NCBI GenBank assembly: GCA_013204045.1
Contig: JABMOQ010000079.1
Coordinates: 1-55,244 of the forward strand
Origin: Rhodospirillaceae bacterium
GTDB lineage: Bacteria; Pseudomonadota; Alphaproteobacteria; Rhodospirillales; JABHCV01
Reading direction: 5' to 3'
Length of the DNA stretch: 55,244 nt
Positions 3,963 through 39,866 of this stretch are shown in pieces. The position numbers were made by a program, and so were the translations under genes. The notes under the pieces are model-generated. The model saw only the letters and a program-made list of their open reading frames with translations, ran no database searches and had not been told where the DNA came from. How positions within the stretch are numbered: position 1 is the first letter of the stretch; each line of letters starts with the position of its first letter.

Positions 3963-4031
3963 ATGTCTGCTTTTCTACGCTTAACGGACATTAATTGTCA
4001 GAACCTCTGCTTATAAGGGGGCAAGCGGGCG
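3963..4031 (+). repeat. Dispersed intergenic repeat, copy B (overlaps a stop codon)
   Basis: Reads TCTGCTTTTCTACGCTTAAC, GGACATTAATTGTCAGAA, then CTCTGCTTATAAGGGGGCAA and GCGGGCG. The stretch TTCTAcGCTTAACGGACATTAAtTGTC is almost identical to copy D (43427-43490). The repeat extends over the last codons and stop (4011-4013) of the methyltransferase gene that reads leftwards from 4862. Confidence 0.7.
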
Positions 4032-4862
4032 ATCGGGTTTTACCGCGACAGCCTCAATCAGGCTCACCCGTTCCTCATCAAGGTTACGGCGCAGGTTATA
4101 GGCCTTGGTGCTGATGTCGTCACCGACCAGCATATACACACCGAGTATCGGAAGATTGGGCTCGCCAACCGGTTCTTTCACGTGTGCAAAGGCCTGCTGT
4201 GCAAGATCGGTCTTGTCATTCCAGACCGTAATATCAAAACCGGCCGAAGTTATGACATCGCGGAATTCTTCCGGCGGCACCAGGAAACTTATGGAACTGT
4301 CTTGCGCCCACGGCACCGGGAAATGCAGCGGTGTGTTTTTATGGGCACATACTTCATACAAAACAGCACGGCAGCCGGGTTTGAGAACACGACAGGTTTC
4401 CGATAGCCACGCCAGCTTGTCTTCAACATTCATGTTCATCTGAATCGACCAGACGCCATCAAATGAATTGTCATCAAACGGTAGTTCCAGCGCACTACAG
4501 GCATGGAACCCTACCCGTTCGTGCATGTTTAATAACTGTGTCAGTCGCCCGGCGACATCAATGTATTCATCACTTAAATCTATACCGGTTACGCGGCATC
4601 CGGTTTCATGGGCCAGCCGGCGTGTGGAACCGCCGATGCCGCAACCCACATCCAGGATATGCTGCTCTGGCGTGAAACCGGAAAGTTTAATCAGTTCCCT
4701 GGTTGCGGTGTCGCCCCGGATATGAAATTCATCCACGGGCTGAAGATCATCCAGTGTGATGTTTGACGAATCCTTGCCAAGTTTATCTAGCCCTTCAATG
4801 ATCTTGTTATACAAATCATTTGGCGCGTAATAGCTGTGAATTTTTTTAATATCTTTAATCAT
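4011..4862 (-). CDS. SAM-dependent methyltransferase, class I
   Basis: 283 residues with the classical Rossmann-fold SAM site: motif I ILDVGCGIGGSTR (about residues 89-101), the acidic motif II end GIDLSDEYI, motif III ALELPFDDNSFDGVW and motif post-III VLKPGCRAVLYEV. The pattern is that of the Methyltransf_11/UbiE-like group that includes glycine-betaine-pathway and small-molecule methyltransferases; the substrate cannot be deduced. The C-terminal helices (DEERVSLIEAVA) are typical of this group. It starts 13 bases from the stop of the gamma-glutamyltransferase gene upstream and on the same strand, so they may be cotranscribed. Its last codons and stop lie inside repeat copy B, so the original C-terminus may have been changed by the repeat. 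Confidence 0.8.
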   Translation of the reverse strand: MIKDIKKIHSYYAPNDLYNKIIEGLDKLGKDSSNITLDDLQPVDEFHIRGDTATRELIKLSGFTPEQHILDVGCGIGGSTRRLAHETGCRVTGIDLSDEYIDVAGRLTQLLNMHERVGFHACSALELPFDDNSFDGVWSIQMNMNVEDKLAWLSETCRVLKPGCRAVLYEVCAHKNTPLHFPVPWAQDSSISFLVPPEEFRDVITSAGFDITVWNDKTDLAQQAFAHVKEPVGEPNLPILGVYMLVGDDISTKAYNLRRNLDEERVSLIEAVAVKPDRPLAPL

Positions 4863-16486: not shown

Positions 16487-18136
16487 ATGGTCAAAACTGC
16501 CCCTCGACACGGTCATCCCAAGGGCCGCCAAATAAGCCCGGAAGCGCTGGACCGGGTGCGCCAATTGCTCGGCGACGGCCCCCGCGATCATGACCTTCTG
16601 ATTGAATACCTGCACCTGATCCAGGACAGCGAAGGCCATATCCCGGCTTCCCTTTTGGCGGCCCTGGCCGATGAGATGAAACTGTCGCAGGCCGAGGTTT
16701 ACGAGGTCGCGACCTTCTACGCCCACTTCGATGTGACCGGCGCGGGCGCGAAGCCGCCACCGCCCCTGACGGTGCGGGCCTGTGGCGGCATCGCCTGTGA
16801 AATGGCCGGGGCCAAACAATTGATCGAGGCCTTGAGCCAGGCCCTTGGCGACAAGGTGCGGGTGATCGAGGCACCGTGCATGGGGGCCTGTGAAAAAGCC
16901 CCCGCCGCCGCCCTCGCCTTCAACCGGATTGACAGCGCAACGCCCGAATTAATCGCCGATGCGGTCCGCGAAGGCCGCACAGCCCCGAACGACACGGACC
17001 AGGCCATATTTCTGGACAATTATATCAGCCACGGCGGCTACACGCTGTTGCAGAGTTTCCGCGCCGGCGAACGCAGCCCTGAAAGCGTGATGGATGAGAT
17101 CGACCGTTCCGGCCTGCGCGGCCTCGGCGGTGCCGGATTCCCGGTCGCCAACAAATGGCGTTTCCTGGGCGATGCGCCGAAGCCCCGGATTCTGGCCGTC
17201 AACGCCGATGAGGGCGAGCCCGGCACCTTCAAAGATCGCCATTGCCTGGAGACCGACCCGCACCGGGTGCTGGAAGGCGCGTTGATCGCCGCCTGGGCGG
17301 TCGGGGCCGATGACATCTACTTCTACCTGCGCGACGAGTATCCGCATATTAGGCAATTGCTGACCCATGAACTTTCGAAATTGAATGGCGCCGGGCTGCT
17401 CGGGGACGTCACCGTTCATCTCAGGCGCGGCGCCGGGGCCTACATCTGCGGCGAGGAAACGGCGTTACTGGAAAGCCTTGAAGGCAAGCGCGGCCTGCCC
17501 CGCAACCGGCCGCCGTATCCGGCCGGAGCCGGACTGTTCGGGCGCCCGACGCTGATCAACAATGTAGAGACATTGTTTTGGCTGCCAGAGATTTTGCAAA
17601 AAGGCGCCGACTGGTACCAGGGCGCGGGCCGGCCCCACTTCTATTCCCTGTCGGGGCGGGTGCGCGATCCCGGCGTCAAGCTGGCCCGAAGCGGCATCAC
17701 CGTCAATGAACTGATCGAAAGCCATGGCGGTGGCATGGCCGATGGACACACGTTCAAGGCTTACTTGCCGGGCGGCGCTTCGGGCGGCGTGCTGCCGGCG
17801 GCAAAAGGCGACCTGCCGCTTGATTTCGGAACCCTGAATGAATACGGCTGTTTCATCGGCTCGTCGGCGGTCGTCGTGTTGTCCGACAAGGACGACATCG
17901 GCGCCGTGGTCCGCAATCTGCTGCGTTTCTTCGAAGATGAAAGCTGTGGCCAATGCACCCCGTGTCGGGCCGGTTGCGAAAAATTGTTACAATTGCTGGA
18001 TGCCCCGGTCCGTGATGAAGCCCTCATTCGCGAACTTGCCGATACCATGGCCGATGCCTCCATCTGCGGGCTTGGGCAGGCGGCGGCCAATCCGCTACTC
18101 TGCGCCATGAATTTTCTGGACGAGGATCTGAAATGA
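16487..18136 (+). CDS. fdsB: NAD-dependent formate dehydrogenase beta subunit (NuoE-NuoF fusion)
   Basis: 549 residues. Residues about 15-160 are a NuoE-like [2Fe-2S] domain (CGGIAC and then APCMGAC supply the four Cys). Residues about 180-545 are NuoF-like: GLRGLGGAGFP and NADEGEPGTFKDR for FMN and NADH, RRGAGAYICGEETALLESLEG, and SCGQCTPCRAGC for a [4Fe-4S] cluster. It takes electrons from the alpha subunit and reduces NAD+. The same fusion is known in the tungsten-dependent FDH1 of Methylobacterium extorquens, whereas most Fds enzymes have separate gamma and beta subunits. The stop overlaps the alpha-subunit start (ATGA). It is divergent from chpT. Confidence 0.92.
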   Translation: MVKTAPRHGHPKGRQISPEALDRVRQLLGDGPRDHDLLIEYLHLIQDSEGHIPASLLAALADEMKLSQAEVYEVATFYAHFDVTGAGAKPPPPLTVRACGGIACEMAGAKQLIEALSQALGDKVRVIEAPCMGACEKAPAAALAFNRIDSATPELIADAVREGRTAPNDTDQAIFLDNYISHGGYTLLQSFRAGERSPESVMDEIDRSGLRGLGGAGFPVANKWRFLGDAPKPRILAVNADEGEPGTFKDRHCLETDPHRVLEGALIAAWAVGADDIYFYLRDEYPHIRQLLTHELSKLNGAGLLGDVTVHLRRGAGAYICGEETALLESLEGKRGLPRNRPPYPAGAGLFGRPTLINNVETLFWLPEILQKGADWYQGAGRPHFYSLSGRVRDPGVKLARSGITVNELIESHGGGMADGHTFKAYLPGGASGGVLPAAKGDLPLDFGTLNEYGCFIGSSAVVVLSDKDDIGAVVRNLLRFFEDESCGQCTPCRAGCEKLLQLLDAPVRDEALIRELADTMADASICGLGQAAANPLLCAMNFLDEDLK

Positions 18137-20859
18137 CAGAATCCATCCCATTCACCCTTAACGGCAAAACCGTCGAGGCGCGCCCGGGCGAAAGTATCTG
18201 GCAGTCCGCCCAACGTCTTGGGATTCACATTCCGCATATGTGTTCCGAAATGAACCGGCATTACCGGGCAGATGGCAACTGCCGCCTGTGCATGGTCGAG
18301 GTCGAAGGCGAGCGCACGCTTGCCGCCAGTTGCAAGCGCCAGCCCACCCCCGGCATGGTCGTTCGCGTGGATTCCGAACGGGCGACAAAATCCCGTGCAA
18401 TGGTCATGGAACTGCTTGTCGCCGACCAACCGGATCGCGCAGAGGTGCGCGACTCATCGCACCGGTTCTGGCGCATGGCGGACCATCTGGGCGTCACCAC
18501 AAGCCGTTTTCCGGCCCGCCACCAGCCCGCCGCCGATAACAGCCACCCGGCCATATCCGTCAATCTGGATGCCTGTATACACTGCACCAACTGTGTGCGC
18601 GCCTGCCGCGAGGTTCAGGTCAACGACGTTATCGGCATGGCCGGGCGCGGTGCCCAATCAAAAATCGTTTTCGATTTCGATGACGCCATGGCCTTGAGCA
18701 CCTGCGTCGCCTGCGGCGAATGCGTGCAAGCCTGTCCGACCGGCGCGTTAATGGCAAAGACAGAAACGGTAAAAATCGACAAGACCGTAGACTCCTTATG
18801 CCCCTATTGCGGGGTCGGTTGTCAGGTCACCTATCATGTGGCCGATGGGCGCATCGTCCGGGTCGAAGGCCGGGACGGACCGGCCAACCACAACCGCCTG
18901 TGCGTCAAGGGGCGGTTCGGTACCGATTATGTGCACCACCCGCACCGATTGACCGTACCGTTGATCCGCCGCGATGATGCCCCCAAAGAGGCCGGGCAGA
19001 CGTTCGATCCCGGCAACCCCCTGAAGCTGTTCCGCGAGGCCACATGGGAAGAAGCCCTGGACCTTGCCGCATCGGGCCTGAAGGACATTCGCAAAAACAA
19101 CGGCGACAAGGCGCTGGCCGGGTTCGGCTCGGCCAAAGGCTCCAACGAGGAAGCCTTTCTGGTGCAGAAACTGGTGCGTACCGGGTTCGGTTCCAACAAC
19201 GTCGATCACTGCACCCGGTTGTGTCATGCCTCGTCCGTCGCAGCTTTGATGGAAGGCATTGGTTCGGGCGCGGTATCAGCGCCATTCACCGACGCCCTTG
19301 AATCCGACGTCATCATCGTGATCGGTTCGCGCCCGGCCCAGAACCATCCGGTCGCGGCGACCTTTATCAAGAACGCCAAACAAAACGGCGCGACCCTTAT
19401 TGTGATGGACCCGCGCGGTCAGGAACTGACCCGCCACGCCGATCACATGTTACAATTCAAGGCCGGCATGGATGTGGCGCTGCTCAACGCCATGCTCAAC
19501 GTGATCATCACCGAAGGGCTGACCGATGACGCCTATATCGCCGCCCACACGGAAGGCTTCGATGAATTAAAGGCCCACATCAAGCCGTTCACCCCGGAAA
19601 AGATGGCCGACCAATGTGGTATCGACGCCGACCTTATCCGCACCGTGGCGCGCACCTACGCCAGCGCCGAGCGGGCCATTATCTTTTGGGGCATGGGCAT
19701 TTCCCAGCATGTGCACGGAACCGACAACGCCCGCTGCCTGATCGCGCTGGCGCTGGTGACCGGACAGGTCGGCCGCCCCGGCACCGGCCTGCACCCGCTT
19801 CGCGGCCAGAACAATGTGCAGGGCGCGTCCGACGTCGGCCTGATCCCCATGGTCTATCCTGACTACAAATCGGTCACCGATGAAAAGACCCGCAAAATTT
19901 ATGAAAAATTATGGGGAACCCCTCTGGATGCGGAACCGGGGCTGACCGTGGTCGAGATCATGGATGCTATCGAAGGCGGCGACATCAGCGGCCTTTACGT
20001 CATGGGCGAAAACCCGGCCATGTCGGACCCGGATGTGAGCCATGTGCGCGCCGCGCTGGCCAAGCTCGACCATCTGGTGGTGCAGGACATTTTCCTGACC
20101 GAAACCGCCCACTTCGCCGACGTGGTTCTTCCTGCTTCGGCGATGCCTGAGAAAAATGGCACCTTCACCAACTCCAACCGACAAGTGCAGCTTGGCCGCG
20201 CCGTCATCGAGCCGCCCGGCGAAGCGCGGCAGGATTGGTGGATTATCCAGGAAATAGCCAACCGCATGGGCCTCGGCTGGACTTATAAGGGTCCAGAGGA
20301 TGTTTACGGGGAAATGCAGCAAGTCATGGACTCCATCAAGGGCATCAGCTGGCAACGCCTGGAACGGGAGGACTGTGTCACCTACCCGTGTGCATCGGAA
20401 AGCGAACCGGGCGAGGCGGTGCTGTTCGCAGGTGGCTTCCCGACCCCCAGCGGGCGCGGCAAGCTGGTTCCGGCGGCGGTGGAGCCGCCCGACGAACTGC
20501 CCGATGATGCTTATCCCATCATCCTGACCACGGGGCGCATGTTAGAGCACTGGCACACCGGCGCCATGACCCGCCATGCCGGCATATTGTCGGCGATCGA
20601 GCCGGTCGCCGTCGCCAGCCTGCACCCCCGGCAGCTGAAAAGCCTGGATATGGAAGCCGGAGACACTGTCCGCGTCAGCAGCCGCCGGGGCACGGTCGAA
20701 TTGATGGCGCGGGCCGACCGGGACGTGCCGGAAGGCATGGTCTTTATCCCGTTCTGTTTCGTCGAGGCGGCGGCCAACCTTTTGACCAACCCGAAGCTCG
20801 ACGCCTACGGCAAAATCCCGGAATTCAAGTTCGCCGCAGTACGCCTGGAAAAGATCTAG
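18133..20859 (+). CDS. fdsA: NAD-dependent formate dehydrogenase catalytic alpha subunit
   Basis: 908 residues. N-terminal [2Fe-2S] ferredoxin domain (CSEMNRHYRADGNCRLCMVE), two [4Fe-4S] motifs (CIHCTNCVRACRE and CVACGECVQACPTGAL), then a third cluster CPYCGVGCQVTYHV in the molybdopterin domain. The active-site motif DHCTRLCHASS has Cys364 at the place where E. coli FdhF has selenocysteine, followed by the essential His365. The bis-MGD oxidoreductase and C-terminal dinucleotide-binding domain (GRMLEHWHTGAMTRH) are complete. It oxidises formate to CO2 (or the reverse) in the cytoplasm, coupled to NAD through the fused beta subunit. Metal is W or Mo; the tup genes next door favour W. No delta subunit (fdsD) follows. 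Confidence 0.95.
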   Translation: MTESIPFTLNGKTVEARPGESIWQSAQRLGIHIPHMCSEMNRHYRADGNCRLCMVEVEGERTLAASCKRQPTPGMVVRVDSERATKSRAMVMELLVADQPDRAEVRDSSHRFWRMADHLGVTTSRFPARHQPAADNSHPAISVNLDACIHCTNCVRACREVQVNDVIGMAGRGAQSKIVFDFDDAMALSTCVACGECVQACPTGALMAKTETVKIDKTVDSLCPYCGVGCQVTYHVADGRIVRVEGRDGPANHNRLCVKGRFGTDYVHHPHRLTVPLIRRDDAPKEAGQTFDPGNPLKLFREATWEEALDLAASGLKDIRKNNGDKALAGFGSAKGSNEEAFLVQKLVRTGFGSNNVDHCTRLCHASSVAALMEGIGSGAVSAPFTDALESDVIIVIGSRPAQNHPVAATFIKNAKQNGATLIVMDPRGQELTRHADHMLQFKAGMDVALLNAMLNVIITEGLTDDAYIAAHTEGFDELKAHIKPFTPEKMADQCGIDADLIRTVARTYASAERAIIFWGMGISQHVHGTDNARCLIALALVTGQVGRPGTGLHPLRGQNNVQGASDVGLIPMVYPDYKSVTDEKTRKIYEKLWGTPLDAEPGLTVVEIMDAIEGGDISGLYVMGENPAMSDPDVSHVRAALAKLDHLVVQDIFLTETAHFADVVLPASAMPEKNGTFTNSNRQVQLGRAVIEPPGEARQDWWIIQEIANRMGLGWTYKGPEDVYGEMQQVMDSIKGISWQRLEREDCVTYPCASESEPGEAVLFAGGFPTPSGRGKLVPAAVEPPDELPDDAYPIILTTGRMLEHWHTGAMTRHAGILSAIEPVAVASLHPRQLKSLDMEAGDTVRVSSRRGTVELMARADRDVPEGMVFIPFCFVEAAANLLTNPKLDAYGKIPEFKFAAVRLEKI

Positions 20860-25866: not shown

Positions 25867-26961
25867 GTGTCAAACCCCCTGATTCCCATAGCAAAGTTAG
25901 GGACGACATTTGCCGAAACCGCCGTTAAAGTGCCAGCCGATATGGATAAACCCCTGGGAACCCGCAACACGATGATTGACCCCCATGGCCGCCACGTAAC
26001 CTACTTAAGGGTATCGGTTACCGACCGTTGTGACTTCCGTTGCGTTTACTGCATGTCGGAAGACATGACGTTCCTGCCCAAGAGCGACGTGCTCAGCCTG
26101 GAAGAACTGGACCGGGTGTGCAGCGCTTTCGTTGCCAAGGGCGTTCGCAAACTGCGCCTGACCGGCGGCGAGCCACTGGTGCGGCGAAACATCATGCAGT
26201 TGGTCCGCGCCCTTGGCCGCCATCTGAAAAGCGGCGATCTTGACGAGTTGACCCTGACCACCAACGGCAGCCTGCTTGAAAAATACGCGGCCGAACTCGT
26301 CGATTGCGGGGTCCGGCGCATCAACATTTCCCTTGATAGCCTGAATCCGGAAAAATTCAGCACCATCACCCGCGGCGCTGATTTGAGCGCCATCTTGAAG
26401 GGCATCGAGGCCGCTAAACGGGCGGGCCTGAAAATAAAAATAAACACCGTCGCCCTGAAAAATTTCAGCGAGGAAGAATTCAACCCGTTGATTGCCTGGT
26501 GCGGCGAACAGGGATTCGACATCACCTTCATCGAAACCATGCCGCTGGGCGACATCGGCGGCGACCGAACCGATCAGTACCTGCCCTTAAGCGACGTGCG
26601 CGAGATGCTGAGCAATAAATGGACATTGACCGATAACGATACGAGTACCGGCGGGCCGTCCCGTTATGTGGACGTCGCCGAGACCGGCCAGCGCATCGGG
26701 TTCATTACCCCCTTGACCCATAATTTCTGCGCCACCTGCAACCGGGTCCGCCTGACCTGCACGGGCAAGCTTTATATGTGCCTGGGTCAGGACGACAGCG
26801 CCGACCTGCGCAGCCCCTTGCGCGCCAGCGAAGGCGACGAACTGCTTTTCACCACCATTGACGAAGCCATCGGCCGCAAGCCGAAAAGCCACGAGTTCAC
26901 TATCGAGCCGGGCAACGACGCACCGGCCCTCGCCCGCCACATGAACACCACGGGTGGTTGA
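25867..26961 (+). CDS. moaA: GTP 3',8-cyclase MoaA (molybdopterin biosynthesis)
   Basis: 364 residues from GTG at 25867; an ATG at 25942 would give 339 residues, nearer to the usual length, and neither has a clear ribosome site. Radical-SAM cluster CDFRCVYC in [37 protein letters not shown], and the C-terminal cluster [22 protein letters not shown]. The chain ends in Gly-Gly (MNTTGG), needed for MoaA activity. It converts GTP to the cyclic intermediate of pterin cofactor synthesis, with MoaC (not in the window). Position beside fds and tup genes fits cofactor supply to formate dehydrogenase. Confidence 0.93.
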
Positions 26962-29640: not shown

Positions 29641-29711
29641 AAGCTAAATGGGCCATGGTTCTGTTGCCAAAAATGGTGTATAATAAGTCGTTCTGGAGGC
29701 AGGAGTTTGAG

Positions 29712-29987
29712 ATGTTTAACCCGGTCGCATTTTCATTCAAAATTCATCAGGCAGCCCTTGATAGCGCGGCATCGGCGACAAGAATGATGACCGTAAACTA
29801 TTTGAATCTTCTCGAGCAGCAACGCTGCCTTCTGCAGCACACTTTCTCCTGCCACAGGGCCGAAGATGGGGCCAAGCCGAAGCGTGGGAAAAAAAGCAAA
29901 TGCGTGAAAGGGTCTCCGTGCCACGGACCGGATTTGCAGAACCATTACGGCAAGCGCGCCCACGACGTTGACATCGAACACGTCTGA
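29712..29987 (+). CDS. Small protein of unknown function
   Basis: 91 residues from ATG at 29712, which has AGGAG seven bases upstream; the frame to 29655 is not needed. N-terminal half helical (NPVAFSFKIHQAALDSAASA then NYLNLLEQQRCLLQ), somewhat like the start of phasin or polyhydroxyalkanoate-associated proteins; C-terminal half basic with three Cys (KPKRGKKSKCVKGSPCHG). A TATAAT lies at 29679-29684 but with a poor -35. Not recognised; it ends six bases before the convergent oxidoreductase. Confidence 0.5.
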   Translation: MFNPVAFSFKIHQAALDSAASATRMMTVNYLNLLEQQRCLLQHTFSCHRAEDGAKPKRGKKSKCVKGSPCHGPDLQNHYGKRAHDVDIEHV

Positions 29988-29992
29988 ACCCG

Positions 29993-31240
29993 TTAAAACC
30001 TGTTCACCCTGAACGGCGCCACATCCAGCGCCGGTGTTCGCATGGCCACAAGATCGGCGATCGTGCGGCCGGTGATAACGCTTCCCATCAACCCGGCATG
30101 AGAATGTCCGAAGGCAAAAAATGTCGTCGGGAAGTTGGGTGACTGAGCGATCACCGGCAGGCCGTCGGGCAATGTGGGGCGGTGGCCCATCCATTCGCTG
30201 TAGCCGTCCGTATTGACGCCTGGCAGCATCCGGCGGACGTGTTTGAGAAGCACCCGGGCCCGGTCATATTTTGTCGGCGCATCAAGGGCCGCAAATTCGG
30301 CTGTACCGGCGATGCGTAAGCCCATTTCCATGGGCGTCAGAACATATTTTCCCTCGCCGTGCATGACCGGCGTGCGCACCGTCACCCCCGGTTCCGGAAG
30401 GGTGATGTGGTAACCCCGTTCGCCGACAAGCGGCACCGGGCTGCCCAGGCGTTTGGCGAAGCTGCCCGAAAAAGCGCCGGCGGCGATGACCACAATATCC
30501 AGATCATGGCTGCCGGTGTCCGTGTTCAGGCACCGGGGGCCGTCGGTACCGACGTCCATATCCTGAATATTTGCCCGAAGGATGGTACCGCCGTTGTTGC
30601 AAAAATGATCGGCAAGCGCCTCGACGATGGCGAGCGGGCTGGTGACCTGTCCGTCATCGGGCAAAAAAACCCCGGCGACGTATGACGGGGCCAGCCCCGG
30701 TTCCATCTCGTGCAGGGCGTTCCCATCCAGCATCTCCAGTCGCACGCCGCGGCGTTTGCTCAAGTCCCAGTCGGCTGCGTGGGCAGCCAGGGATTTCTGG
30801 CTTTCATAAGCGTAAAGACATCCAGATGGTTTGATCAGGTCGGCGGCACCGATCGAGGCAAACAGGTCCTGAAAATCGGTGAGGCAATTTATGTGCAGAT
30901 CGCGCAAGATTTTTGAAGAGGCTTCTGCCCGGCTTGCCGTTCCGGCCCTCAGGAAACGCAGAAACCACGGAATCAAGGATGGAAAGTCACGCCAGCGAAT
31001 CGACAGCGGCCCCAGGGGGTCAAGCAGCCAGCCCGGAACATGCCATGCCGTGCCCGGCGACGACATGGGCACACAGTAGCTGGGGGCGAGTATCCCGGCG
31101 TTGCCGAAGGAACAGCCCTGGCCCGGGGCATCGCGATCAATAACGGTCACGTCATGGCCGTCGCGCTGCAAGTGAACGGCCGTCGCCATGCCGATAACGC
31201 CGGCGCCGATAACCGTGACTTTGCGGTTGGAAGGATTCAT
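29993..31240 (-). CDS. D-amino-acid dehydrogenase-like FAD oxidoreductase (DadA type)
   Basis: 415 residues from ATG at 31240 (MNPSNRKVTVIGAGVIG), preceded by GGGAAAAAAGG. N-terminal FAD motif VIGAGVIGMATAVHLQRDGHDVTVID, then CSFGNAGILAPS and PWFLRF, typical of the DadA group; late motifs ERGYHITLPE, EWMGHRPTLPDGLPVI and FFAFGHSHAGL are also characteristic. It should oxidise D-amino acids or a related amine to a keto acid, with electrons to quinone. It is 64 bases downstream of a second FAD oxidoreductase on the same strand, so they probably form an operon for amine or D-amino-acid breakdown. Confidence 0.85.
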   Translation of the reverse strand: MNPSNRKVTVIGAGVIGMATAVHLQRDGHDVTVIDRDAPGQGCSFGNAGILAPSYCVPMSSPGTAWHVPGWLLDPLGPLSIRWRDFPSLIPWFLRFLRAGTASRAEASSKILRDLHINCLTDFQDLFASIGAADLIKPSGCLYAYESQKSLAAHAADWDLSKRRGVRLEMLDGNALHEMEPGLAPSYVAGVFLPDDGQVTSPLAIVEALADHFCNNGGTILRANIQDMDVGTDGPRCLNTDTGSHDLDIVVIAAGAFSGSFAKRLGSPVPLVGERGYHITLPEPGVTVRTPVMHGEGKYVLTPMEMGLRIAGTAEFAALDAPTKYDRARVLLKHVRRMLPGVNTDGYSEWMGHRPTLPDGLPVIAQSPNFPTTFFAFGHSHAGLMGSVITGRTIADLVAMRTPALDVAPFRVNRF

Positions 31241-31304
31241 GGCCTTTTTTCCCAATCTTATTCGTTAGGCCCCATGTCGGTTTTGTCTGAACCGAACGAT
31301 CAAA

Positions 31305-32654
31305 TCAATCCTTTTCGTCAAGGTAGCGATACCACATCAACAGCGCCCGCTGCCCCAACCGCCGGAAAGCGGCAAGCGGATAGCGGGGCATCGGGCTGAG
31401 GAACGGCAGACGCGGATGGGCGGTTGAATTGCCGGTCAGCGAGGCCGCCAACAGGCGACCGGCATGCAGGGAAAAAGCCACACCTTTGCCCGTATAGCCC
31501 CCGGCGTAATGAACGGAAACATCGTCTTTGGCATGATGGATGTGAGGCATGTAGTCATATGAAACATTGACCCAGCCGTCCCAGAAATAATCCGCCGTGA
31601 TTTGGCCGAGGGCCGGAAATTTGGTTCTGACAACATTCAGCAACGCCTGCCGGTGCGCCGCCAGTCCCGAGGGTGTCGCCGTGATGGGTCCGCGCCCGCC
31701 CATCATCACCCGGTTGTCCGGCAGACGCCGGAAATAGGTGCTGGTATGGCGCGTATCGAGCATGGCGTCGGTGCTGACAAAGCGGCTCTCGGCCAGTTCT
31801 GTCGCCGACATGGGACGGGTAACGATGATATTCGACAGCACCGGAAGGTGGCACCCTCTCAGGGTCTTGTGCAGACCATCGAATGTATAGCCGTTGCCGG
31901 CCATGACCACCCGTTTTGCCCTGACCCGGCCACCCGGGGTCATCAGGACGTGGTGGCGGCTGTCCTTTGACCAGTTGATTACCGGACTGGCGCCGTGGAC
32001 GACGGCCCCGGCCGCCCGCGCCAGAATCAAAACGCCGTTCAGTAACTTTAAGGGATGCAGGGTGAAATTGCCGAGTGTGCGCAAGGCGGCGTAGGCCTCG
32101 GCACCCTGGAAATGAGTGTCGGCAATGGCCTGTGCGTCGAGCAACTCGGAATGGCCGCCAAAAACCTCGGCCAGTACTTTTTGTTCGGCCTCAAGTTTCG
32201 TGATGCGGCTGGGTCGATGCGCCATCTTCAGCAGGCCTTCTGGCTGGCAGTCGCAATCGATACCGCCGACATCAATCAGTTCGTGAACCGTCGCCAGCGC
32301 CGCCTTGCCCTCCGCGTAAAGGGCAAGGGCGGTTTTCATACCCCATTTTTCGACCCAGGTGTCGTAGCCGTGACGGCCGATGGTTGACATGACGAAGCTG
32401 CCATTGCGCCCGCTACAGCCCCAGCCGGGACGGTTGGCCTCGAGCACGACGGCGCGGATTCCATATTCCCGGGCCAGGAAGTAAGCCGTGCTGAGGCCCG
32501 TATAGCCGCCACCGATTATGGCGACATCGGTTTCCATATCTTCTTTCAGTGGCCCGTCATCGCCGGCCAAGGGCCCGGCAGTGGCCGCCCAGTAGGTGTC
32601 CGGATGATCTTCACCCAGGCCGGGATAGGGCGCTTTCAGGGGGTCTTTCAGCAT
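31305..32654 (-). CDS. FAD-dependent amine oxidoreductase (PuuB/OrdL-like)
   Basis: 449 residues. FAD site DVAIIGGGYTGLSTAYFLAR and VLEANRPGWGCSGRNGSF, in the DAO superfamily; YYFRRLPD-type strand, GGRGPITATPSG and YAGGYTGKGVAFSLHAGRLL near the end match the gamma-glutamylputrescine oxidoreductase group. The N-terminal TYWAATA is also typical. Substrate is probably a secondary amine or gamma-glutamyl amine; the gamma-glutamyltransferase far upstream is not linked. First gene of the two-gene run with the DadA-like gene. Confidence 0.82.
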   Translation of the reverse strand: MLKDPLKAPYPGLGEDHPDTYWAATAGPLAGDDGPLKEDMETDVAIIGGGYTGLSTAYFLAREYGIRAVVLEANRPGWGCSGRNGSFVMSTIGRHGYDTWVEKWGMKTALALYAEGKAALATVHELIDVGGIDCDCQPEGLLKMAHRPSRITKLEAEQKVLAEVFGGHSELLDAQAIADTHFQGAEAYAALRTLGNFTLHPLKLLNGVLILARAAGAVVHGASPVINWSKDSRHHVLMTPGGRVRAKRVVMAGNGYTFDGLHKTLRGCHLPVLSNIIVTRPMSATELAESRFVSTDAMLDTRHTSTYFRRLPDNRVMMGGRGPITATPSGLAAHRQALLNVVRTKFPALGQITADYFWDGWVNVSYDYMPHIHHAKDDVSVHYAGGYTGKGVAFSLHAGRLLAASLTGNSTAHPRLPFLSPMPRYPLAAFRRLGQRALLMWYRYLDEKD

Positions 32655-32742
32655 GCTGTCATTTTCGCCTGTTATCTTACTCTGTCGGTCATCGACATTT
32701 ACATATGAACTGCGGTTTTACCCATATGTTGGAACTTACGCC

Positions 32743-32964
32743 ATGCCTCGTTTTATCTTTCCCGCTTCCGCCGTGCTAGTGGCCTTCCTGATTGGGCCAC
32801 CGGCCCATGCCCAGTTTAACCCGCTATCCATTATCAAGGGAGCCATCGAGGCGGCGGCCGAAGACCGCAAGGCCGATGACATCAAGAAAAAAGCCTTCTT
32901 GCTGGCTCGCAAGGTCAAGGGCGTTAAAAACCTAACCAACCGCGTCAAGGTCGCCGCCAAATGA
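32743..32964 (+). CDS. Small secreted basic protein
   Basis: 73 residues from ATG at 32743. Signal peptide MPRFIFPASAVLVAFLIG with cleavage expected after AHA. The mature part (about 50 residues) is a basic helix rich in Lys and Ala (KKKAFLLARKVKGVKNL). I do not recognise a family. A terminator follows two bases after the stop, which supports a real transcription unit. Confidence 0.55.
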   Translation: MPRFIFPASAVLVAFLIGPPAHAQFNPLSIIKGAIEAAAEDRKADDIKKKAFLLARKVKGVKNLTNRVKVAAK

Positions 32965-32965
32965 A

Positions 32966-32987
32966 AACCGGCCCCTTTAGGGGCCGG
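32966..32987 (+). terminator. Hairpin terminator after small secreted protein
   Basis: CCGGCCCC-TTTA-GGGGCCGG (32968-32987) is a perfect eight-base-pair GC stem with a four-base loop right after the stop codon of the small secreted protein. Only a weak T stretch follows (CATCATTTGAC), so strength is uncertain. Confidence 0.6.
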
Positions 32988-33134
32988 CATCATTTGACAG
33001 GGAGGGGAAGGAACCGGGAAAGGCTCAGGGGGACGAGCGCGGGGGATATCCCGATCCCTTCATTTGTCCTCATCATAGCGCCGATCCCTGCCCGTGGCCC
33101 GTAACGGCTGTTCAAATAATTGTGATTTGCGGAT

Positions 33135-33620
33135 TTAATCCCCGGAAACCCGCATACGGCCCTGATAGCGGGCCATGAAATAGCGTTTTTCGCGGGTCCA
33201 GTAACAGCGTGAACCGCTTGGGGCGATCTCGAAATAGCCTTGCCTTTCCTGCATCCGGTAGGCCTGGGTGCAGCCCCAGTAGCTGACGGTGAAACCGTCA
33301 CCGGCCGGTTTGATGCGACCGATCCTGGAACTGCTAACGGTGATGGCATCCGTGGTACGGGGGAAACAATTGCCGGCGCGCGCCCCCCGGCATTCGGCTT
33401 CGTGGCTATCCATGACCTTGACGTGATCGATGGCACCGTCAGTGACCCGGAAACCGTCATCGTCAAGCATGACGCAGCCATCCTCGGGAGGGATCTGGCT
33501 GTGCGCGTATTCGCAGCTGAACCACAGGCCGTTCAGTGAGGGCGGGTTTTCCCCCGCAGATGGACTGGCGGCGAAAAACAACGCGGCCACAACCGTTAAC
33601 AAAATCCGGTGTGTTGTCAT
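33135..33620 (-). CDS. Secreted protein of unknown function with several cysteines
   Basis: 161 residues from ATG at 33620 (MTTHRILLTVVAALFFAASP), a good signal peptide with cleavage near SAG. The mature part has seven Cys (SCEYAHS, EDGCVML, EAECRGARAGNCF, WGCTQ, SRCYW), suggesting three disulfides in the periplasm, and the opening SLNGLWFSCEYAHSQIPPED suggests a lipocalin-like or inhibitor-like small beta domain. No family recognised. Confidence 0.6.
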   Translation of the reverse strand: MTTHRILLTVVAALFFAASPSAGENPPSLNGLWFSCEYAHSQIPPEDGCVMLDDDGFRVTDGAIDHVKVMDSHEAECRGARAGNCFPRTTDAITVSSSRIGRIKPAGDGFTVSYWGCTQAYRMQERQGYFEIAPSGSRCYWTREKRYFMARYQGRMRVSGD

Positions 33621-33668
33621 GCCCCATATTGCCCTATGGTGCGCCGCTTCCACAATGAGTAAGACGCC

Positions 33669-35254: not shown

Positions 35255-36007
35255 ATGATGACCGATGGCTGCTGCAGACATATCGCCATAATTCCCGGCC
35301 GCGCCGGCAGCAAAGGGCTGCCGGGCAAGAACCGCTATCTGTTTGACCTGACGGCAGATTTCATTCAGGAGAGCCATCTGTTCGACCGTGTGATCGTTAC
35401 CAGCGACGATCAGGTGCTGCTTGAAATGGCGCAAAGACAAGGATTTGAAATACGCGCCCGGCCGCCCGAACTGTGTACCGACGAAGCATCCATGAAACAG
35501 GTGTTTGAAGACCTTGTCGCCAACATGCCTATAAAACCGGATGATTACCTGTGGTTTCTCGCCCTGACGCTGGTTTTTAAAGATGCCGATGATTTCCGGC
35601 ATGCCAAGGACATCATCGAAAAAGAACGTCCGTCGAGCCTGTGCAGCTTCATCCCGGCCGGAAGCCATCCCTACTACTGCTGGCGGGTTGATGAGAAAAC
35701 CGGACACATGGAACGCTTTATCGACCATGACCTGTACCGGCGCCAGGATCTTCCCGATGCCTGGGAGGAATATCCTTATCTGTACTGTATTCGCGCCGAT
35801 TCTCTGGATCAGGCAAATTCGAATTTAATTCGCGGCGACGTCTACCCTATTTTTTTGGACCAGGGGCAAGCCGAACGGATGGTCGACGTTGACGAGCCCA
35901 AGGATTTCATCACGTGGGAGAGAACCCATCCCCATCATTTTCATGAATGGCGAGAACGCCTGGCCGATGATGTGGATCTTCCGGGATTGAGCAAAAAGAA
36001 AAGCTAG
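35255..36007 (+). CDS. CMP-sugar synthetase-like cytidylyltransferase (acylneuraminate type)
   Basis: 250 residues. N-terminal nucleotide-binding motif IAIIPGRAGSKGLPGKN and the strand FDRVIVTSDDQVLLEMA, as in NeuA-like CMP-acylneuraminate synthetases, then DVYPIFLDQGQAERMVDVDEPKDF near the end. Between residues about 95 and 200 it diverges, notably where the usual PTSPLR-type sugar-binding run is expected (YLWFLALTLVF). The reaction would be CTP plus a nonulosonic or related acidic sugar. A second, more typical member lies at 39180-39866. The stop overlaps the stop of the convergent PilZ gene. Confidence 0.75.
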   Translation: MMTDGCCRHIAIIPGRAGSKGLPGKNRYLFDLTADFIQESHLFDRVIVTSDDQVLLEMAQRQGFEIRARPPELCTDEASMKQVFEDLVANMPIKPDDYLWFLALTLVFKDADDFRHAKDIIEKERPSSLCSFIPAGSHPYYCWRVDEKTGHMERFIDHDLYRRQDLPDAWEEYPYLYCIRADSLDQANSNLIRGDVYPIFLDQGQAERMVDVDEPKDFITWERTHPHHFHEWRERLADDVDLPGLSKKKS

Positions 36008-36324: not shown

Positions 36325-36390
36325 CCTAACGGATATAGCCCGATCCCGCCATAACCTTGCTAAACCTGTACGTATTTGAAACTATGGGTC

Positions 36391-37566
36391 ATGGATTCTA
36401 GGCGCATCGGTATCACTTGGCAGCTTTCGGACAATCACGGGTGGGGTGTGTTTGGCCTTAACTTCGCATATAACCTGATTGTCAACGGCCCGGCCGCGCC
36501 CATGATCTTCGCCGATCAGAACCTGACCGCCGTGCCCAATGAAACTATTGCCGCCCTGACCCCCTTTTTCAATGAGCGGGTCGAACTACTGGCCCGTATT
36601 GAGGCAAATGGTGGCCATGCCCTTTTCGATGAGGCTGTTTTAATTCATGCCCTGTCCGATGACTTCCGCCATTCGGAAATCAGCGACAAGGCGCGCGGCC
36701 ACCACAATGTTGGCTTTGTCTTTTTTGAAAATGGTGAAATCAACGCCGACTCTGTGGAACGGGCAAAGCAATGGGACCGCGTGCTTGTAGGGTCGAGCTG
36801 GAATCTGGAAAGATGCCAGGCATCCGGCATTGACGGCGCGGTCTTTGTTTCGCAAGGCATAGACCCCGACCATTTCAAGCCGGTCCCCAGAACCGACGCC
36901 CCGAAGGAACGCTTTGTCATATATTCCGGCGGCAAACTGGAAGTGCGGAAAGGCCAGGATCAGGTGCTTGCCGCCTTTAAACGCTTTGTACAGATTCATC
37001 CGGACAGTCTGCTCATTACCTCGTGGCAGAACCACTGGCCACAGACGATTCAAAGCTTGGTAGAAAGCCCCCATGTGAATTCCCTGCCGGGCCTGGACGA
37101 GAAAGGCAACCTGAGGATCGTCGACTGGGCCCTGGCCCACGGAATCCCTCCCAATACGGTGGTCGATACCGGCTGGGTGCCCAATACCTGGCTACCGAAA
37201 CTACTCTCCCAGGCCGACGTCGCCTTATTCCCCAACCGCGGCGAAGGCGGCACCAACCTTGCCGCCATGGAGGCCATGGCCTGCGGCGTGCCGTGTATTG
37301 TGTCGGCCAATACCGGCCATCTGGACCTGATCGGGGAAGATAATTGCTATGTGCTGGAAGACCAGAGTCCGGGAAATTTCAGCGCCGACCCAGGCAGACA
37401 CTGGCGCGATTCATCCATTGATGAAATTGTCGACAAACTTGAAATGGCCTATGCAGACGCCGCGGACCGCACCCGGCGTGGCGACAATGGCGCCACCTTT
37501 ATGAAAAACATTTCCTGGGAAACCCAGGTGGCCAAGATTGCCGATTCCATCAGCGATTTTCTGTAG
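36391..37566 (+). CDS. Glycosyltransferase, GT4-like (GT-B fold)
   Basis: 391 residues from ATG at 36391 (MDSRRIGITWQLSD); a TTG five codons earlier is less likely. GT-B layout: an N-terminal domain with GVFGLNFAYNLI, and a C-terminal nucleotide-sugar domain with FVIYSGGKLEVRKGQDQVLAAF, the KLLSQADVALFPNRGEGG acceptor/donor segment and NLAAMEAMACGVPCIVSANTGHLDLI (EX7E-like motif). It would add a sugar to a lipid, protein or polymer at the cytoplasmic side. First gene of a run with the RquA-like gene (19-base gap) and the sugar isomerase. Confidence 0.85.
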   Translation: MDSRRIGITWQLSDNHGWGVFGLNFAYNLIVNGPAAPMIFADQNLTAVPNETIAALTPFFNERVELLARIEANGGHALFDEAVLIHALSDDFRHSEISDKARGHHNVGFVFFENGEINADSVERAKQWDRVLVGSSWNLERCQASGIDGAVFVSQGIDPDHFKPVPRTDAPKERFVIYSGGKLEVRKGQDQVLAAFKRFVQIHPDSLLITSWQNHWPQTIQSLVESPHVNSLPGLDEKGNLRIVDWALAHGIPPNTVVDTGWVPNTWLPKLLSQADVALFPNRGEGGTNLAAMEAMACGVPCIVSANTGHLDLIGEDNCYVLEDQSPGNFSADPGRHWRDSSIDEIVDKLEMAYADAADRTRRGDNGATFMKNISWETQVAKIADSISDFL

Positions 37567-37585: not shown

Positions 37586-38323
37586 ATGAAAATTCCGAAA
37601 CCTGCATTCTATAAATATTTTGAAGATGGCATGCCGTGGTATCTGGTCCGCCATTACTGGTGGGCGTATCTGTGGCCGGTCGCGGTCTGGTTTTTCGACC
37701 ACCAGCCGATCATAAATGCCATCCTGTTCGGCCAGTACCGGAAATTGATGGACGCGACCATGGCAAGGTTGGCCCATCGGCCCAAGGGGCGGGTTTTGCA
37801 GCTAACCTGTGTGTATGGAGAACTGACGCCTAAACTGGCGGCGGCCCTGCACCCCGAGCCCCTGCACATCACCGATGTGGCGCAAATCCAGCTTGATGTT
37901 GCCCGGCGCAAGCTGGGCCACAGTGACCAGCTGATGGCGACCCGCATGAATGCCGAGCATTTGGGCTACGAAGATGACAGCTTTTCAACCATTGTGCTGT
38001 TTTTCCTGCTCCACGAAATGCCCGAAGAGGCGCGCCGCAATACCCTTGCCGAATGCATGCGGACCCTTGTGCCCGGGGGCGTGCTGCTGATGACCGAGTA
38101 TGCCCCCCGGCCACAAAGGCACCTGCTGTACCGTTTCCCGCCGAGCCGCTGGCTGCTGGTCCGGCTGGAGCCCTTCCTCGGTACTTTCTGGCTGGAAGAT
38201 ATGGAACCCCTGCTTAATGAATGCGGCAGCGCCCATGGCAAGCATGTCGCCGCCATCCGGGAAGAAACATTTTTTTCTGATTTCTATCGTGTTACTGAAT
38301 TCAGCATCGCGGGCAAGTCATGA
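37586..38323 (+). CDS. rquA: RquA-like protein (rhodoquinone biosynthesis-type methyltransferase fold)
   Basis: 245 residues from ATG at 37586. Features shared with RquA: MPWYLVRHYWWAYLWPVAV, DHQPIINAILFGQYRKLMDA, an altered SAM motif I reading QLTCVYGEL in place of a Gly-rich loop, TDVAQIQLDVARRKL, VLFFLLHEMPEEARR, TLVPGGVLLMTEYAPRP and LEPFLGTFW. RquA converts ubiquinone to rhodoquinone for low-potential anaerobic respiration; it uses SAM as amino donor. The differences (TEYAPRP where RquA has DYH.P) leave room for a paralogue of another function, and the operon position between a glycosyltransferase and a sugar isomerase is odd for a quinone gene. The gene name is tentative. Confidence 0.65.
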   Translation: MKIPKPAFYKYFEDGMPWYLVRHYWWAYLWPVAVWFFDHQPIINAILFGQYRKLMDATMARLAHRPKGRVLQLTCVYGELTPKLAAALHPEPLHITDVAQIQLDVARRKLGHSDQLMATRMNAEHLGYEDDSFSTIVLFFLLHEMPEEARRNTLAECMRTLVPGGVLLMTEYAPRPQRHLLYRFPPSRWLLVRLEPFLGTFWLEDMEPLLNECGSAHGKHVAAIREETFFSDFYRVTEFSIAGKS

Positions 38324-38344: not shown

Positions 38345-39163
38345 ATGTATATGAATAAGGAAAAATCCATCCGCTTCGGCATTGTTCAGGGCCGCCTGAC
38401 CCAATCGCCGCCCGGCTGCCTGCAATGGTTTCCGCAAGAAAAATGGCGCGATGAATTCGCCCTGGCGGCCGGTGTGGGCATCGATTACATCGAGCTGATT
38501 GCCGAAGAACAGCACAACCCCGATAACCCGATCTGGTCCGAAGCGGGCACCGATGAAATTATATCCCTGACATCGGAAAACGGACTGACCCTGCATAGCC
38601 TTTGCAACGACTACGTCATCAAGCACGGGCTTCTGGGGAACGACGATGTTATGGGCCAAAACCTGGAATTGATCGGGCGGGCCGGCAAGCTGGGCATGGA
38701 TAAATTTATCCTGCCGCTGTTCGGCCAAAGCGAGCTGACGGCCGCAAACGCCGATGACTACATGGCACCGGTCCGCCAAATCGCCGGCGCGGCCCTGGGC
38801 CAAGGCATGACCACCTGCCTGGAAACCAACCTGCCCGGCAGCGACCTTGCGGCGTTTCTGGATGGCACCGGGCTGGCATCCGTCAAGGCCGTTTACGACA
38901 CCGGGAACCGGGCCCCTTTCACCCCCGACCTTGGCGCCGACATCCGCCTGCTCAGACCCCATATCGCCCATGTTCACATCAAGGACAAGAACGCCGACAA
39001 TGAAAATGTCTTGCTGGGAAGCGGCCTCGTCGATTTTGCCGACGTGTTCCAGGCACTTTCGGATATCACCTATGGCGGCCCGTTCACCTTTGAAACACGG
39101 CGCGGCACAGACCCCCTGCACACGGCGGCCGAAAATATAAAGCTGGTCCGTCGCTTTTATTAA
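38345..39163 (+). CDS. Xylose-isomerase-like TIM-barrel sugar isomerase/epimerase
   Basis: 272 residues. The AP2Ec/xylose-isomerase-like barrel is seen in FGIVQGRLTQSPPGCLQWFP at the start, ELIAEE and CLETNL (metal-ligand Glu strands), AVYDTGN (Asp ligand), and HIAHVHIKDKN (His ligands). Typical members isomerise or epimerise sugars or their acids, or dehydrate inositol derivatives. Downstream of the RquA-like gene (21-base gap) and convergent with a CMP-sugar synthetase gene, it probably works in the same sugar pathway. Start could also be ATG at 38351. Confidence 0.8.
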   Translation: MYMNKEKSIRFGIVQGRLTQSPPGCLQWFPQEKWRDEFALAAGVGIDYIELIAEEQHNPDNPIWSEAGTDEIISLTSENGLTLHSLCNDYVIKHGLLGNDDVMGQNLELIGRAGKLGMDKFILPLFGQSELTAANADDYMAPVRQIAGAALGQGMTTCLETNLPGSDLAAFLDGTGLASVKAVYDTGNRAPFTPDLGADIRLLRPHIAHVHIKDKNADNENVLLGSGLVDFADVFQALSDITYGGPFTFETRRGTDPLHTAAENIKLVRRFY

Positions 39164-39179: not shown

Positions 39180-39866
39180 TTATTCATTGCCCAGATAGTT
39201 CTGGAAAAGGCTTTCGAGCAGCTTCCAGTCCTCGGGCGCGTCCAGTTCGAAGGACTGCCAGAACGCCATCATAAAGATACCGATCTTGCCGCCCAGGCGG
39301 TTGCCGCTTTCCAGCAAAATGTGCGGACGGAACATGTAAATGGAGCCGTTCTCCACAAATTCAGGCTGGCGGTCCTGACGCATGCCGCGGTTGCGCCAGT
39401 CGTAATTGATACTTTCAAGGGCGCCTTCGCCGCCACCGCGCCAGATCAGGAAATCTTCAAGCCGCGAGCCGGAAAAACAGGAGTCCCATTTTTCTGCCCG
39501 AAATTGGCCGATGCATCTGGAAAGATCATGTTGTTTTCGAATTGGCGATGTGGCCTGCAACATCAAGGCGATTTCCGGATCGCCGCCGATAACCCCAAGG
39601 GCGTGGGCCATGGCCGATTCCGAGGTCGCCGAATCGCCCGCGATGTCATCCGGGCGAACCATGGGAATGGCGCCGTATTGCTGGCCAATATCCCGAATTT
39701 CTGCGGAATCCGAGGTCACGTAAACGGCATCTATTTCCGGCGTCTCCAGGGCCTGCTGGATGGTCCAGGCGATCAACGGCCGGCCGCAGAAATCGCGGAT
39801 GTTCTTATCCCGAATTCCCTTCGAGCCGCCGCGCGCCGGAATAATCGCCACCACCTGTTCAGGCAT
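39180..39866 (-). CDS. Acylneuraminate cytidylyltransferase (CMP-nonulosonate synthetase)
   Basis: 228 residues, the standard single-domain size. Motifs: VVAIIPARGGSKGIRDKNIR (CTP-binding P-loop-like region), AVYVTSDSAEIRDIGQQYGA, ATSPIRKQHDLSRCI and SIYMFRPHILLESGN, as in NeuA and PseF/PtmB-type enzymes. It activates a nonulosonic acid (sialic, legionaminic or pseudaminic) with CTP. No nonulosonate synthase gene is in the window, so the sugar remains open. It lies convergent to the sugar isomerase, 16 bases apart. Confidence 0.88.
   Translation of the reverse strand: MPEQVVAIIPARGGSKGIRDKNIRDFCGRPLIAWTIQQALETPEIDAVYVTSDSAEIRDIGQQYGAIPMVRPDDIAGDSATSESAMAHALGVIGGDPEIALMLQATSPIRKQHDLSRCIGQFRAEKWDSCFSGSRLEDFLIWRGGGEGALESINYDWRNRGMRQDRQPEFVENGSIYMFRPHILLESGNRLGGKIGIFMMAFWQSFELDAPEDWKLLESLFQNYLGNE

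Follow-up and report, generated by a model that had tools for sequence, protein, structure and literature searches.

RquA uses SAM and Mn2+ to convert ubiquinone into rhodoquinone, a low-oxygen electron carrier, and the capacity to make rhodoquinone is inferred from genomes by a match to rquA. In our data set the enzyme forms two clusters, here called groups A and B (labels separate from the groups of PMC5953543), which are only about 36-44% identical to each other. Rhodoquinone has been reported from an enzyme of each, the RquA of R. rubrum in one group and that of M. marinus in the other (PMC9814641, PMC11707229), and the M. marinus enzyme works in E. coli (PMC11707229). Asp118 and Asp143 of R. 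rubrum RquA are the two named SAM-site residues (PMC9814641), and RquA was reported together with the oxygen-independent pathway in 73 of 84 genomes (PMC11707229). Two other families serve as points of comparison: the UbiE/Coq5 methyltransferases, and CpaM, a corrinoid protein-associated methyltransferase.

The gene described here lies at positions 37,586-38,323 (+ strand) of the window, that is, the whole 55,244-nucleotide stretch that was analysed, from a Rhodospirillaceae genome of 2.68 Mb in 177 contigs (98.7% complete). Its open reading frame starts with ATG and encodes a class I SAM-dependent enzyme of 245 aa. The gene is real: its product matches the NCBIfam RquA model NF038261 with an E value of 2.4e-52, and relatives 60-68% identical occur in many genomes. 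The first-pass annotation correctly placed it between a glycosyltransferase and a sugar isomerase-type gene. The former, of GT4 type (36,376-37,566, +; PF00534/PF13692), ends 19 bases upstream; the latter, 21 bases downstream (38,345-39,163, +), encodes a xylose-isomerase-like TIM-barrel protein (PF01261) weakly similar to L-ribulose-5-phosphate 3-epimerase. Elsewhere in the window, a NuoE/NuoF-like fusion followed by a molybdopterin oxidoreductase (16,487-20,859) looks like an NAD-dependent formate dehydrogenase, and a moaA-type gene is found at 25,867-26,961.

Of all families, the RquA model fits the window protein best by a wide margin, with 177.9 bits for a cut-off of 175, and the remaining families stay far below their own cut-offs. 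CpaM (NF043040) comes second with 48.5 bits against a cut-off of 180, and no corrinoid protein was seen next to the gene; the UbiE/MenG model (TIGR01934) gives 36.7 bits, below its cut-off of 158.35. Scores on NF038261 nevertheless fall into two distinct ranges. In the order to which the window belongs (317 genomes), scores are 249-317 bits for full-length true RquAs, against 166-178 for the window protein and six others. Among 398 genomes across the phylum the ranges are 279-317 and, for near-complete copies, 155-187, with one outlier at 225 bits; this outlier (L157, on contig 5 of G319) has the D-x-H segment of RquA and attaches to the base of RquA by a long branch. The curated cut-off passes through the middle of the lower range, which corresponds to a sister clade of RquA that includes the window protein. 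When scored with a profile built from true RquAs of the order, the related loci described below reach 105-144 bits.

Phylogenetic placement points the same way. We anchored a tree with the RquA of R. rubrum (genome G210, which we take to be strain ATCC 11170; counted from the Met of MTKHQ, its RquA has Asp at 118 and 143) and with that of M. marinus (G322, presumably strain MC-1). RquA (28 rows) and the clade of the window protein (32 rows) are split at 100/100. AU tests reject the window protein inside group A (p = 0.0006), inside group B (p = 7e-6) and with A+B without L157 (p = 0.004); a looser grouping, which also permits the window protein at the base of its own clade, gives p = 0.007, and p = 0.30 once R. 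rubrum is added. The tree is read here as unrooted, since rooting with methyltransferases of the source genome produced very long outgroup branches. On sequence grounds, the window protein is an RquA relative outside the clade of the R. rubrum and M. marinus enzymes; its identity to RquA is about 27-37%. The first-pass reading of an RquA holds for kinship, and for a link to low-oxygen quinone metabolism, and fails for family membership.

All the motifs on which that reading was built are present: HYWWAYLWPVAV at residues 23-34 (37,652-37,687, +), CVYG at 75-78 (37,808-37,819, +), FFLLHE at 139-144 (38,000-38,017, +) and LEPF at 194-197 (38,165-38,176, +). The first of them, however, is no RquA hallmark. 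This N-terminal segment belongs to the signature of the sister clade, HYWWAYLW...WFFDHQ, in which YWWAYLW is invariant in 50/50 aligned members; RquA has Y-[T/W/Y]-W-A-Y-[L/V/I]-[N/H/S/D]-P at this place. The other motifs are shared: C-V-Y-G is an altered SAM motif I standing for GxGxG, and the glycine-rich SAM loop of ordinary methyltransferases is absent from both clades. Residues invariant in both include Y24, W26-A27-Y28, L54, L71, Y77-G78, D97, Q102, L141, H143-E144, P146 and E195-P196, with P17 and F230 nearly or fully common; Asp97 (37,874-37,876, +) is the equivalent of the SAM-binding Asp118 of R. rubrum RquA. Length, class I fold, the VYG motif I, FFLLHE, LEPF and the WAY motif are alike in RquA and the window protein. 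The common motif I, HE and LEPF motifs and SAM-binding Asp argue for a divergent rhodoquinone synthase performing the same SAM-to-ubiquinone amino transfer, as do the score above the NCBIfam cut-off and the reported formation of rhodoquinone by RquA groups that are themselves so distant.

Other positions argue against it. RquA never or rarely varies at D190, H192, P199, A215, G243 and Q246-K247 (R. rubrum numbering), where the window protein has E, A, L, L, D and R-V. The change is clade-wide: Glu for D190, Gly or Ala for H192, no P199, Leu for A215, no G243 and R-V for Q246-K247, along with extra residues at 183-184. One such replacement affects the D-Y-H segment after strand 5, in which RquA has Asp in 100% and His in 93-100% of sequences. 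In the sister clade the first residue is Glu in 100%, the third is mostly Gly or Ala, and His is not among the commonest residues; the window protein has E171-Y172-A173 (38,096-38,104, +). Since UbiE has E-F-S at this site, the Glu of the sister clade may be ancestral.

The same features are consistent with an enzyme acting on the same class of substrate by other chemistry, such as methylation or another SAM-derived change of the ring. The clade-wide shift from D-Y-H to E-Y-G/A, with a Glu that matches UbiE, would fit such an activity, as would the clade-invariant R159 and R188. AlphaFold2 models are confident in both clades (pLDDT 94.5 for the window protein, 96.4 for RquA), and the best PDB match of the window model is yeast Coq5, although the scores of many class I methyltransferases are almost as high. 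The window protein resembles UbiE/Coq5 in the class I fold and this Glu, but has neither the glycine-rich SAM loop nor a score near the UbiE cut-off, and the source genome has its own ubiE (261 bits) apart from the window gene. Moreover, its motif I is as non-canonical as that of RquA, which speaks against ordinary methylation, and we know of no unexplained quinone from carrier organisms. We consider a different modified quinone less likely than not.

Searched with the window protein, genome contigs yielded 80 loci that are 46-66% identical, in Mariprofundus and other Zetaproteobacteria, Sideroxydans, Gallionella, Ferrigenium, Chromatiales, Tenderia and other Gammaproteobacteria, and Rhodospirillales MAGs. 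The sister clade is spread over Mariprofundaceae, Gallionellaceae, several Gammaproteobacteria and a few Rhodospirillales-type Alphaproteobacteria. The gene occurs sporadically, in 30 of 74 Mariprofundaceae genomes and about 8 of 317 genomes in the order of the window, one of these eight (G002) having a fragment only (108 bits). A phylum-level sample had suggested a core gene of Mariprofundaceae, which the family scan ruled out. Nor does the gene mark iron oxidation, for all that carriers had the look of iron oxidisers: six Mariprofundaceae have the Cyc2 motif, taken from PMC8406198, one time each, as opposed to 0/7 alphaproteobacterial carriers tested. One Mariprofundaceae genome, G538, has two copies, on contigs 8 and 4 (180 and 167 bits). 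Another genome, G031, apparently combines a true RquA (C355, 290 bits) with the sister gene (C245, 171 bits), at loci L113 and L120; it is a MAG with 78% completeness and 3% contamination, in which a binning error is possible. Literature on rhodoquinone with Zetaproteobacteria or Gallionella, or on 'RquA-like' proteins, contained nothing on the sister clade, which is apparently undescribed.

The position of the gene in the window could suggest that a paralogue has been co-opted for the modification of surface sugars or lipid-linked sugars. This alternative, raised in the first-pass annotation for a sugar or lipid, draws only on the neighbours. The gaps of 19 and 21 bases on a single strand favour it, as do two nearby genes resembling pseudaminate cytidylyltransferases. 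These divergent CMP-sugar cytidylyltransferases (35,255-36,007 and 39,180-39,866) are encoded on opposite strands, one on each side of the glycosyltransferase/RquA-sister/isomerase cluster, and neither reaches the PseF cut-off. Yet neither partnership is conserved. In two genomes of the same family (G081 and G083) the gene adjoins homologues of the genes at 29,655-33,653 of the window and a 242 aa gene, 4'-phosphopantetheinyl-transferase-like in our reading, with no sugar genes beside it. Five same-family genomes were searched for the glycosyltransferase, and none had a match to it at E<=1e-25; in the same family, the TIM-barrel isomerase has only 30-32% identical matches, on other contigs. 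Glycosyltransferases are also absent from the 25 commonest families of neighbours. The sugar-operon setting probably reflects chance gene order at this locus, and recruitment to sugar modification appears improbable.

Gene neighbours differ widely from lineage to lineage. At two loci (L038 and L114) the gene neighbours multihaem cytochromes and cytochrome b561, and at another (L037) a DHODB-type/GltD-type/2-oxoacid:ferredoxin oxidoreductase set. In many Gammaproteobacteria it is found with cytochromes c, glutamate dehydrogenase, oxoacid:ferredoxin oxidoreductase subunits and a GltD-type protein, and in Gallionellaceae it adjoins a short-chain dehydrogenase (names assigned by sequence reading, partly confirmed by Pfam). 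Haem-motif ORFs are enriched 4.2-fold at distances up to 1.5 kb from the gene (36/349) relative to those beyond 2.5 kb (11/413), in lineages that are not independent.

The source genome encodes ubiA (373 bits), ubiE and ubiB, as well as the oxygen-independent set ubiT-ubiU-ubiV in one run of genes; given this complement, a supply of ubiquinone is likely both in the presence and in the absence of oxygen. A further UbiE-like methyltransferase of canonical domain, unrelated to the RquA-sister gene, is encoded at 4,011-4,862 (-) of the window. A second rquA, for which the first-pass annotation proposed to search, was not found in the genome (98.7% complete). In the order, UbiV is present in 8/8 carriers of the sister gene compared with 171/317 genomes overall (Fisher p = 0.0066, uncorrected for relatedness). 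By contrast, each of five Mariprofundaceae carriers that were checked has just one U32 protein and is probably devoid of ubiUV, so a link to anaerobic ubiquinone synthesis does not hold for all carriers.

Our preferred explanation, to which we give a probability of about 0.65, is that the sister-clade enzyme modifies the head group of ubiquinone, yielding a quinone for low-oxygen respiration. It is based on kinship to RquA, a separate clade, shared core residues, and ubiquinone genes that include the anaerobic ubiTUV. The structural match to Coq5, the presence of UbiV in all carriers of the order, the enrichment of haem motifs nearby and the cytochrome or ferredoxin-linked neighbours of relatives also speak for it. 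The altered VYG loop and Asp97 would bind SAM, the head group of ubiquinone would lie close to His143/Glu144 and Glu195, and a hydrophobic segment at the N terminus would meet the membrane; as we found no published mutagenesis of these residues, their roles are inferred. The ring would then be modified with SAM, amino transfer as in RquA being the leading single candidate. Against this quinone-modification reading stand the sugar genes next to the gene in the window, the loss of residues that RquA never or rarely varies, the variety of neighbours and the non-general ubiUV link; moreover, we know of no assayed member of the sister clade, including in the literature searched.

Rhodoquinone itself, a special case of head-group modification whose confidence overlaps with it, is a tentative proposal. 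Besides the clade-wide replacement of D-Y-H and the exclusion from the RquA clade at 100/100, the apparent presence of both genes in the 78% complete MAG weighs against it. With the D-Y-H segment missing, a different ring modification is nearly as likely. A bolder proposal, and a more doubtful one, is that the clade makes a previously unknown ubiquinone derivative by SAM chemistry unlike that of RquA, which would tune the quinone pool of iron oxidisers and other redox-interface bacteria.

These results bear on how genomes are read. As the clade straddles the curated cut-off, which 14 of the 30 Mariprofundaceae carriers pass, some carriers would receive the RquA name while close relatives would not, and such labels on the sister clade may overstate which bacteria make rhodoquinone. 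If the clade does make rhodoquinone, low-potential quinones would extend to neutrophilic iron oxidisers, whose electron flow to NAD+ is still unsettled; any other product would mean a new quinone yet to be discovered.
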